Positions 51,545-53,878 of a stretch of DNA of 64,000 nt are shown one piece after another. A program made the translations under genes and the position numbers. This DNA is from Candidatus Villigracilaceae bacterium (GTDB lineage: Bacteria; Chloroflexota; Anaerolineae; Anaerolineales; Villigracilaceae): assembly GCA_026645935.1 (NCBI GenBank), contig JAPKMP010000004.1:108047-172046 (forward strand). Direction: 5' to 3'. A model generated the notes under the pieces. It did not search any database. It worked only from the letters and a program-made list of their open reading frames with translations, and had not been told where the DNA came from. How positions within the stretch are numbered: position 1 is the stretch's first letter; the number at the start of each line of letters is the position of its first letter.

Positions 51545-53308
51545 CTAACTAAATTTGATATGTAGTTCTTTCAACTGCTTCGGCTCTACCTCAGACGGAG
51601 CATCCGCCATCACGTCGCGTCCATTCTGGTTCTTCGGGAAGGCGATCACTTCGCGGATGTTCGGTTCGTCCGCCAGCAGCATCACGAGCCGGTCAATACC
51701 GGGAGCCATGCCGCCGTGCGGGGGAGCGCCATACTCGAACGCCTCCAGCATGTGACCGAATTTCTTCTGAATGTCCTCATCGCTCAAGCCGAGCAACTGG
51801 AACATCTTCATCTGAATATCGCGGCGGTGAATACGGATCGAGCCTGAGGCGGTCTCATATCCGTTACACACCATGTCATATGCATCCGAAAGCACCGCGC
51901 CAGGATCGGTATCGAACTTCGGCAGGTCTTCCATCTTCGGCATCGTGAACGGATGATGTTCCGACTCCCATGTTTGCGTTTCTTCATTGAACGCAAAGAA
52001 CGGGAAGTCCACCACCCACGCGAAAGCCATCATATTTTTATCTGCCAAATCCAACTTATCGCGGAACCACAAGCGCAGTCCGCCGAGAGTTTTATTTGCA
52101 ATAGCTCGAGCATCAGAAGCGAAGACGATCAGATCGCCGACTCCTGTTCCCGTTTTTTCTTTCAACGCTGCCAGTTCTTCCTCCTTAAAGAACTTTGCCG
52201 CGCTTCCTTTCACGCCCTCGGCTGTTACCGCCAAATAGGGCATTCCCTTCGCCCCAAACGACTTCGCCACTTCTGTGAGCGCATCGAGCTCCTTGCGAGA
52301 CATCTCCGCAGACTTGGGCGCGACGATGCACTTGATCACGCCACCCGCCTCCAACGCGGACTGGAAGACCTTGAACTCGCTCTTCGCCAAAATATCGGTG
52401 ACGTCGATCAACTCCATGCCGAAGCGCAGGTCGGGCTTGTCTGTGCCGAAGCGTTCAAGCACTTCTTTATAAGAGAACTTGGGCCACGGCGAAGAAAACA
52501 ACTTCTTATGAGGCGCTACTTCTGGCAGCATCGCTGTGAACAGACCTTCGACCAGATCCAACACATCGTCGCGTTGCACGAAAGACATCTCAAGGTCTAG
52601 CTGTGTGAATTCGGGCTGACGGTCGCCGCGCAGATCTTCGTCACGGAAGCAGCGCGCGATCTGGAAGTATCTGTCCATGCCTGCCACCATCAGCAATTGC
52701 TTCAACTGCTGGGGCGACTGGGGCAATGCGTAGAACTGACCCGGGTAAATGCGGGAAGGGACGAGGTAATCGCGCGCGCCTTCGGGAGTCGCTTTGAACA
52801 TGATCGGCGTTTCGATCTCAATGAAGCCTTTTTCATCAAGATAGTCGCGCATGTACTTGACGATCTTATGCCTCAGCACCATATTCCTGGTCAGGCGTTC
52901 ACGGCGCAGGTCAATGTAACGATATTTCAAACGCATGTTCTCGTCAGGCAGGTCATTGTCGGTATTGACCATGAACGGCGGAGTCCTGGATGGGTTGAGT
53001 ACGATCACATTCCTGGCAATGACTTCTACTTCGCCCGTTTCCATTTTTGGATTTTCCATCCCTTCAGGGCGTTTTTGTGCCACGCCTTCGATCTGCAAAA
53101 CCCACTCATTGCGCACATCTGCAACGAGATCGAGCATTTCTGTGGGCAGATCGGGATTGATGGTGACCTGAACAATGCCTGCGCGGTCACGCAGGTCAAA
53201 GAATGCCACCCCACCGTGATCGCGGCGTCGATTTACCCAGCCTGCAAGTGTGACGGTCTGCCCGGCATGGCTGGCTCTTAATTCTCCACAAAGATGAGTT
53301 CTGTACAT
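51545..53308 (-). CDS. aspS: Aspartyl-tRNA synthetase, predicted non-discriminating
   Basis: A 587-residue bacterial-type AspRS: OB fold, class II core, GAD insertion (about residues 290-410) and motif 3 [18 protein letters not shown]. In the anticodon-binding domain His31 (RRRDHGG) and Gly83 (RPEGMEN) match residues known from Pseudomonas aeruginosa AspRS to allow charging of both tRNA-Asp and tRNA-Asn; discriminating E. coli AspRS has Leu and Lys there. With GatCAB it would give Asn-tRNA-Asn. GGAGG precedes the ATG. An attenuator-like leader lies upstream. Confidence 0.95.
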
Positions 53309-53329
53309 ACTTGCGCCTCCGAAAGGATT

Positions 53330-53422
53330 ATGTCATTGCGAGCAGGAGCGGGACGGGGCAATCTCAAGATCGACGGGGAGATTGCTTCGAGCGGAATTGT
53401 GCCGCTCTCGCAAATAACATGG
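53330..53422. repeat. GTCATTGCGAG palindromic repeat in the aspS leader region
   Basis: TGTCATTGCGAGCAGGAGCG at one end and CGCTCTCGCAAATAACATGG at the other, with GGCAATCTC and GAGATTGC in the middle, form a long inverted repeat. It lies between the attenuator terminator and the aspS start codon and would fold in the mRNA. Confidence 0.7.
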
Positions 53423-53430
53423 AATAGATA

Positions 53431-53465
53431 AAATAAATCGCCCTGCGCTTCTGCGTCGGGCGATT
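53431..53465 (-). terminator. Attenuator terminator upstream of aspS
   Basis: On the minus strand AATCGCCC (53465-53458) pairs with GGGCGATT (53443-53436), with an inner CGC/GCG helix and AGAA loop, then TATTTTATC. It shares TCGCCC with an alternative antiterminator helix. Confidence 0.75.
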
Positions 53466-53510
53466 GGCTTGACTTGATTTGCTTTGTCAACTAGCAAGGC
53501 TTCGCCCAAC
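53455..53510 (-). promoter_or_regulatory. Antiterminator helix of the aspS leader
   Basis: GTTGGGCGA (53510-53502), inside the leader-peptide frame, can pair with TCGCCCGAC (53463-53455) over 9 bp with one G-U pair. This pairing uses the 5' arm of the terminator, so the two structures exclude each other. Confidence 0.7.
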
Positions 53511-53574
53511 GATAGGGTAGATCGTCATTATCATTATTATTATCGTTGTTGGCAAAGTGGATCGGGTGCTGCAT
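53491..53574 (-). CDS. 27-residue Asn/Asp-rich leader peptide of aspS
   Basis: ATG at 53574 to TAG at 53493-53491. The peptide starts MQHPIHFA, has residues 9-18 NNDNNNDNDD and ends LPYRWAKPC. A perfect TATAAT (53589-53584) lies 9 bp upstream, so the message is nearly leaderless. A ribosome stalled on the Asn/Asp codons (53550-53521) leaves GTTGGGCGA free to form the antiterminator; one that reads to the stop codon covers it and the terminator forms. This is the trp-type attenuation layout, here for aspS. It is too short for usual gene calling. Confidence 0.8.
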   Translation of the reverse strand: MQHPIHFANNDNNNDNDDLPYRWAKPC

Positions 53575-53583
53575 CGTGGCGGG

Positions 53584-53589
53584 ATTATA
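53584..53589 (-). promoter_or_regulatory. -10 box of the aspS leader
   Basis: A perfect TATAAT on the minus strand. Position -35 holds only CGAACA (three of six consensus bases) at 17 bp. Confidence 0.6.
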
Positions 53590-53878
53590 GCATGAGAAGC
53601 CGCAATTGTTCGAGGCAAGTTGCTAAACGCTTTGATTCTCGTCTGCGCGTAGCCAACTTGTCGGAAGAGCTAGTCTGAAGCCGAATCAGCCCAATAGTGA
53701 GCATTTTTTGGCAGGATTCAAGCAAAGGGAGGATAAATGCAACCAATGGGCTGCCCGGATACAGGTCCGTAATGAGGCGGGGAACTTGATCCATTAATGA
53801 GATTCCAATACTCATCCGTTATCATGCGTTTTCGCATCATGAATCGAACGGCTGTTTTGCCGAAGTAAGGAGGTTCCA
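53590..53878. other. Intergenic stretch between the aspS leader and the small membrane protein gene
   Basis: About 290 bp with no supported gene. A GGGAGGATAAATG at 53732 opens only an 11-codon frame. CATGCGTTTTCGCATCATGA-like inverted bases lie near 53825. The promoter of the 46-residue protein is presumably here. Confidence 0.4.

Follow-up and report, generated by a model that had tools for sequence, protein, structure and literature searches.

A candidate leader-peptide attenuator with an asparagine and aspartate codon run upstream of aspS in Chloroflexota

In the 64,000-nucleotide stretch of Chloroflexota DNA that we analysed (the window), aspS, which encodes AspRS, is preceded by a short reading frame containing an uninterrupted run of Asn and Asp codons and then by a terminator. 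This arrangement raises the question of whether the principle of leader-peptide attenuation, set out in the portions available to us of PMC2659441 and PMC1183508, has here been put to the control of a tRNA synthetase gene. We conclude, with a probability of about 0.88 and from sequence comparison and predicted folds, that the aspS leader is likely to be a ribosome-mediated transcription attenuator that raises readthrough when charging of Asn- or Asp-tRNA falls. The elements on which this reading is built are as follows.

53589-53584, minus strand: -10 box TATAAT, 9 nt 5' of the leader ATG.
53574-53491, minus strand: leader peptide ATG frame MQHPIHFANNDNNNDNDDLPYRWAKPC, 27 codons plus stop, predicted to be leaderless or nearly so.
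53557-53541, minus strand: segment 1 (CTTTGCC..CAACGAT), pairing with segment 2; from the fold, a predicted anti-antiterminator or pause helix.
53550-53521, minus strand: regulatory codon run NNDNNNDNDD, leader codons 9-18, ten consecutive Asn/Asp codons.
53514-53500, minus strand: segment 2, TATCGTTGGGCGAAG, holding the antiterminator 5' arm CGTTGGGCGA at 53511-53502.
53465-53454, minus strand: segment 3, with the antiterminator 3' arm TCGCCCGACG at 53463-53454, overlapping the terminator 5' arm AATCGCCC at 53465-53458.
53443-53436, minus strand: segment 4, the terminator 3' arm GGGCGATT.
53435-53426, minus strand: U-rich tract TATTTTATCT, directly after the terminator 3' arm.

The TATAAT, the 27-codon frame, NNDNNNDNDD at residues 9-18 and the terminator with its U-rich tail all lie on the minus strand where the original prediction had placed them. 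That prediction had also described a 9-bp antiterminator using the 5' arm of the terminator; such a helix is present, with the correction that its core, GTTGGGCGA (53510-53502) with TCGCCCGAC (53463-53455), extends to 10 bp including one G-U. The antiterminator duplex is calculated at -17.5 kcal/mol, compared with -18.4 kcal/mol for the terminator hairpin, in which AATCGCCC / GGGCGATT is joined by 3 additional inner pairs. Across both strands of the 64 kb, the leader is the only frame between 8 and 45 codons long to combine a TATAAT-like box (5-13 nt upstream, matching at 5 of 6 letters) with either a terminator after it or a stretch of 10 residues in which one residue occurs at least 5 times. 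A simple consensus scanner called no promoter at the leader TATAAT, and the same scanner, whose rule takes loops of 3-8 nt, did not list the leader terminator, giving an overlapping plus-strand hairpin instead. Between the terminator and aspS there is a dispersed repeat (53413-53330) with partial copies at four other sites in the genome; the DNA of this gap varies among relatives, and its spacing in the genus is 60-176 nt.

Conservation of the leader was assessed in as much as 450 nt of DNA upstream of aspS in 47 of 57 genomes of the same genus, together with hand-picked loci from the rest of the family (46), other families of the order (22), other orders of the class (40) and other classes of the phylum (40). 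A frame with at least 6 Asn/Asp in 10 residues precedes aspS at 46 of the 47 genus loci and 38 of the 46 family loci, and further out at 8/22 order and 4/40 class loci, while the same frame arises in 0.21% (genus), 0.22% (family), 0 (order) and 0 (class) of dinucleotide shuffles. None of the 40 loci from other classes of the phylum reached 6 Asn/Asp in 10; two reached 5, both without a terminator. The sole genus miss, G025, is clipped by a contig end, yet its run is readable. These counts keep in the denominators four loci with short upstream DNA (L170, 67 nt; L211, 213 nt; L072, 231 nt; L150, 299 nt) and retain L147, whose Glu- and Gly-rich frame is probably no real leader; L131, which scores 5, is counted at cut-off 5 alone, and L119, L129, L130, L132 and L185, scoring below 5, are not counted though Asn/Asp codons can be read in them by eye. 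When residue pairs were ranked by matches at 7 of 10, Asn plus Asp came top in genus and family and level with two other pairs in the order set; in the class set it is outscored by Arg plus Ser and by Gly plus Arg. DNA similarity alone recovered the leader region in 32 of the 37 genomes searched within the genus and in 2 of 24 outside it. Records sharing 77-94% AspRS identity are for the most part metagenome genomes with the titles Anaerolineales, Anaerolineae or Chloroflexi, and the class and phylum names follow those titles. An RNA model (R1), built partly from the same loci against which it was searched, gave 48 strong matches (E ≤ 3.9e-20), one per genome, in 48 of the 57 genus genomes; 47 of these are aspS upstream regions already sampled and the 48th match lies in G021. 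Further copies of the element per genome were considered and rejected, the remaining R1 matches being weak (E ≥ 4.2e-5) and many of them the opposite strand of the same site.

If the frame is read by ribosomes, the run should be kept as codons and not merely as a DNA repeat. An earlier codon count delimited the run by its Asn/Asp residues, making its outcome partly true by construction, and the count given here is instead independent of residue: it is anchored on the segment 2 motif and covers eight codons in the majority frame (3 genus and 9 family loci lack the anchor). In this stretch 293 of 296 AAN/GAN codons at 44 genus loci are AAY/GAY, with 3 AAR/GAR and 0 stops, and at 37 family loci the figure is 197 of 197, with 0 AAR/GAR and 0 stops, making 490/493 for the two sets together. 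The third position is often T and often C (AAT 327, AAC 148, GAT 144 and GAC 107 in 85 leaders), and 9-11 codons separate the last Asn/Asp codon from the stop in 46/46 genus and 36/39 family leaders. Because AAR and GAR are avoided, T and C are mixed and the distance to the stop is kept, selection on the run acts at the codon level; the size of the Asn/Asp cluster ranges from 5 to 13 among genus leaders, with the order and number of N and D varying freely. The stretch that follows behaves differently: GGGCGAAGC is conserved, yet among the leaders holding it 5 of 44 (genus) and 6 of 30 (family) read it in a shifted frame and end YRWAKPC in place of VGRSFAG. As GGGCGAAGC is kept even where the reading frame differs, selection on it acts at the level of RNA. 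By these comparisons, the Asn/Asp run is conserved as codons and the stretch following it as RNA in two reading frames.

The helices were compared at loci taken as leader-bearing when they had at least 5 Asn/Asp in 10. Downstream of the run a terminator is found at 46/46 genus, 38/39 family, 7/10 order, 7/8 class and 0/2 phylum leader loci. With the whole upstream region scored at one cut-off, leader loci give 46/46, 38/39, 8/10, 7/8 and 0/2 from genus to phylum, against 1/1, 3/7, 2/12, 8/32 and 0/38 at control loci with no Asn/Asp leader; these numbers reflect that single cut-off, a first comparison having judged leaderless control loci by a stricter one (15 vs 13) than leader loci. The duplex between segments 2 and 3, at loci with a terminator, stands out from shuffles (p ≤ 0.05) in 40/46 genus and 33/38 family leaders and, outside the family, in 4/7 order and 2/7 class leaders. 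In almost every genus and family leader its arms are kept and can pair. In alignment A1 (72 sequences) pairing is kept in 91.4% of cells for the antiterminator and 98.4% for the terminator; the terminator covariation score is reached by 0/500 shuffles, and the antiterminator score for pairing plus covariation, with arms nearly invariant, is matched by 33/500. One antiterminator pair in A1, where 33/500 shuffles score as high, shows UG, UA and CG, and no antiterminator pair in that alignment has changed on both sides relative to its commonest pair. Covariation was dropped as the main proof, the arms holding too little variation. In some distant loci the three-arm logic can be seen by eye in other letters, as GGGGCGGC / GCCGCCCC in L168 and as CGGGCGGT / ACCGCCCG in L185 (4 of 10, not counted as a leader). 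Relatives had been expected to show Asn/Asp-rich frames with covarying helices: frames and arms are indeed conserved, but covariation in the alignment is weak. Conservation of the run and helices in close relatives, whose absence had been named beforehand as refuting, was thus examined, and the attenuator reading survived.

A third helix, 1:2 (53557-53541 with 53514-53500), appears in the fold of the window leader and, added to 2:3 and 3:4, completes the three-helix set; it is significant at p ≤ 0.05 in 34 of 46 leaders of the genus and 27 of 39 of the family and, beyond the family, in 0/10 order and 2/8 class leaders. If the edge of the ribosome is assumed to lie 12 nt past the start of the A-site codon, a ribosome stalled anywhere from codon 9 to codon 18 leaves the 9-nt antiterminator arm wholly uncovered, and one from codon 19 onward starts to cover it. 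Under that assumed edge, the geometry agrees with the original proposal that the arm lies 3' of the Asn/Asp run and is left free by a stalled ribosome. Folds cut before segment 4, with a stall in the run, give the antiterminator in 46/46 genus, 38/38 family, 6/7 order and 5/7 class leaders. With the ribosome at the stop, minimum-energy folds leave segment 3 free in 32/46, 23/38, 6/7 and 5/7 of the same sets, and with no ribosome in only 19/46, 10/38, 0/7 and 1/7. Folds of the window leader that include segment 4 always give the terminator, at every ribosome position, and antitermination would therefore have to be kinetic.

The position of the promoter bears on how a ribosome would reach the frame. 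Taking the last in-frame ATG before the run as the leader start, TATAAT lies 7-10 nt before the ATG in 46/46 genus leaders and 7-20 nt before it in 39/39 family leaders; an exact TATAAT within 40 nt of the ATG is present in 9/10 order and 2/8 class leaders. Transcription usually starts 6-8 nt after the -10 box. Were transcription to begin at that distance from TATAAT here, the message would carry hardly any 5' untranslated sequence, which makes a leaderless frame probable.

In the mechanism that we propose, RNA polymerase would start at or beside the leader AUG, with a ribosome following. Scarcity of Asn-tRNA-Asn or Asp-tRNA-Asp would stall this ribosome within the ten-codon Asn/Asp run, holding helix 1:2 open and segment 2 unpaired, whereupon segment 2 would pair with segment 3 as the antiterminator before segment 4 exists and polymerase would continue into aspS. 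When both tRNAs are charged, the ribosome would proceed to the stop and mask segment 2, and segments 3 and 4 would form the terminator. Were there no translation, helix 1:2 could capture segment 2, so that the terminator could form then too. We infer all four of the start site, the stalling, the termination and the charging response. The trp-operon logic originally suggested for an Asn/Asp leader and aspS is supported by conservation, codon-level selection, complementary arms and stall geometry, and the sequence-based support for regulation is strong in genus and family and thinner beyond.

Could the RNA alone be the switch, with the short frame incidental? Helices that are conserved nearly letter for letter would fit binding of AspRS to the leader of its own gene, a T-box or a riboswitch of unknown type, and there are precedents in one Clostridium acetobutylicum aspS placed under T-box control in the available text of PMC2494555 and in a structured aspS leader predicted in Shewanella, for which the part of PMC2659441 available to us mentions no peptide. 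Such a switch would not, however, explain codon-level selection on the Asn/Asp run; moreover, neither the T-box covariance model nor any other Rfam family matched 53300-53700 at E ≤ 10, and 12 related loci had no Rfam match at the gathering score. We regard an RNA-only switch as unlikely to a marked degree.

The run is also low-complexity DNA, a dispersed repeat lies immediately downstream of the terminator, and 14 of 90 aspS loci without such a leader (five sets pooled) have terminators upstream, all of which would suit a constitutive early terminator or plain promoter region in which the Asn/Asp codons are a functionless AT-rich repeat. A plain DNA repeat, however, would neither shun AAR and GAR (3 of 493 AAN/GAN codons, motif-anchored) nor preserve the frame or the 9-11 codon distance to the stop, making this explanation very improbable indeed. 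Nor is it at all probable that the nascent poly-Asn/Asp peptide arrests the ribosome, or acts as a small protein, in place of codon-by-codon sensing of charged tRNA. Arrest peptides need fixed residues; here N and D follow one another in any order and in differing numbers (clusters of 5 to 13 among genus leaders), and, unlike in arrest peptides, the residues that come after the run change with the frame. What speaks for a role of the peptide is that leader peptides acting in trans have been reported, as described in the accessible part of PMC7298713. The ribosome-mediated attenuator is accordingly the reading under which we consider why both Asn and Asp would be sensed, for which the genes of the neighborhood are informative.

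53308-51545, minus strand: aspS, bacterial-type AspRS with H31 and RPEG.
50026-49724, minus strand: gatC (NCBIfam model), downstream of aspS on the same strand.
49723-48209, minus strand: gatA (NCBIfam model), downstream of aspS on the same strand.
46661-45159, minus strand: gatB (NCBIfam model), downstream of aspS on the same strand.
44298-42955, minus strand: asnS (NCBIfam model), downstream of aspS on the same strand.
42804-42628, minus strand: 6S RNA (73.2 bits), just downstream of asnS.

The H31 and RPEG of the window AspRS align with 4wj3 and 4rmf, whose chains are named Asp/Asn ligase, and 1efw has L31. We take H31 and RPEG of 4wj3 and 4rmf to be marks of a nondiscriminating AspRS and L31 of 1efw to mark a discriminating one; on that alignment, the window AspRS bears nondiscriminating-type anticodon-domain residues. 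Most fetched loci stop short of residue 31, with about 24 codons of aspS each; H31 is present in all 36 leader-bearing loci that reach it, and one aspS copy of G211 has F31. GlnRS (glnS) passes the cut-off in 9 of 9 genus genomes tested, and GatCAB should therefore be dispensable for Gln-tRNA. Homologues of asnB occur in 47 of 57 genus genomes (38 above cut-off), so transamidation is not the sole source of Asn. Among 19 genomes tested, asnS is above cut-off in 16. It follows aspS on the same strand at a distance of about 4-13 kb in the 9 genomes of the genus, and of about 0.1 kb in G168, G211 and G133; the two genes are far apart in G497 and on different contigs in G504, G518 and G361. G138 has no asnS over the cut-off, though its leader has both Asn and Asp. 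In an order-level sample, 94 of 300 genomes had no match to the window AspRS at E ≤ 1e-60; some are fragmented and several are near-complete f13 genomes, which suggests another AspRS type in the latter.

In G211 (L352, 949-8682) aspS is present twice, on either side of gatC, gatA and gatB, and an Asn/Asp leader precedes each copy. One copy, with gatC, gatA and gatB downstream, specifies an AspRS with H31, and its leader, MKPELLFALNNNNNNNDDRMAAVGRSASG, is mainly of Asn codons; the other, with asnS downstream, specifies one with F31, and its leader, MKSRLPFANNNDDNDDRRIVGRSLAG, has Asn and Asp in equal number. Two aspS matches near each other are found in G229 as well. Between aspS and dapB in the window (51519-50927) there are two frames, one of 73 aa that matched no family and one with a weak resemblance, below cut-off, to MazF; both are present in L352 and L353 and absent from L348, L351 and L355. 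In the upstream direction of asnS within the window, no leader was seen on reading its DNA and none was found by the window-wide frame rule.

Sensing of both Asn and Asp fits a putative nondiscriminating-type AspRS clustered with gatCAB and asnS: the enzyme would presumably charge both tRNAs, one enzyme feeding both sensed pools. A lone nondiscriminating AspRS alongside GatCAB, AsnRS and GlnRS is described for Bdellovibrio in the available part of PMC4206432. We would put at only slightly better than even the fuller proposition that this is a leaderless dual-specificity attenuator, old within its class, Anaerolineae, that reads pooled tRNA-Asn/tRNA-Asp charging and thereby adjusts a nondiscriminating AspRS (accompanied by GatCAB and, in some lineages, by an immediately neighbouring AsnRS) to the need for the two amino acids together.

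The literature searched contained, among the matches listed, no Asn/Asp leader peptide and no aspS leader-peptide attenuator; PubMed 20198868 (2010) lay outside that search. The original view that this is not a described system holds insofar as no counterpart appeared in the literature searched, but given PubMed 20198868 priority cannot be asserted. Attenuation of aminoacyl-tRNA operons is the subject of that 2010 paper, which PMC4833913 cites, to go by the part of the latter available. If the attenuator is real, the list of amino acids for which leader peptides are known to act as sensors would gain Asn and Asp, classical attenuation would extend to a tRNA synthetase gene of Chloroflexota, and it would be tied both to the translation of leaderless messages and to the two ways of making Asn-tRNA. 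A run kept as codons beside a stretch kept as RNA in two frames offers a natural test case, and small leader frames are easily overlooked by genome annotation.

The details of leader-peptide attenuation are known from the trp, his, leu, thr and phe attenuators of Proteobacteria and from pheST of E. coli. Like these, the aspS leader has a frame with regulatory codons, overlapping 1:2, 2:3 and 3:4 helices and a terminator before the first gene; unlike them, it would sense Asn plus Asp, has aspS as its gene, is found in Chloroflexota and is predicted to be leaderless. In a T-box, the RNA binds tRNA directly, without a leader peptide. The Clostridium acetobutylicum aspS gene under such control (one of its aspS genes, per the available text of PMC2494555) shares with ours the gene, the tRNA-charging signal and antitermination, and differs in binding tRNA directly where the Chloroflexota leader has an Asn/Asp peptide frame. 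The predicted Shewanella leader resembles it as a structured RNA with a terminator upstream of aspS, and differs in that the accessible part of PMC2659441 mentions no leader peptide for that gene. Mycobacteria have leaderless short frames of cysteine codons (Canestrari 2020, as described in the portion available of PMC9031893), which likewise place contiguous codons of the sensed amino acid in a leaderless frame and attenuate downstream expression; as that portion has it, they differ in sensing cysteine, in the genes concerned and in regulating downstream translation, whereas the aspS leader has a conserved intrinsic terminator. In Bacillus, hisZ and a paralogue of hisS have His leader peptides (PMC2965389, in part), and Streptomyces avermitilis trpS2 has a candidate attenuator (PMC1262725, in part); there too leader-peptide attenuation has been proposed for an aminoacyl-tRNA synthetase gene, in those cases with a single amino acid, another gene and other phyla. 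Set beside these systems, the aspS leader is apparently a case of classical attenuation with a new sensed pair, a new target gene and a new phylum.
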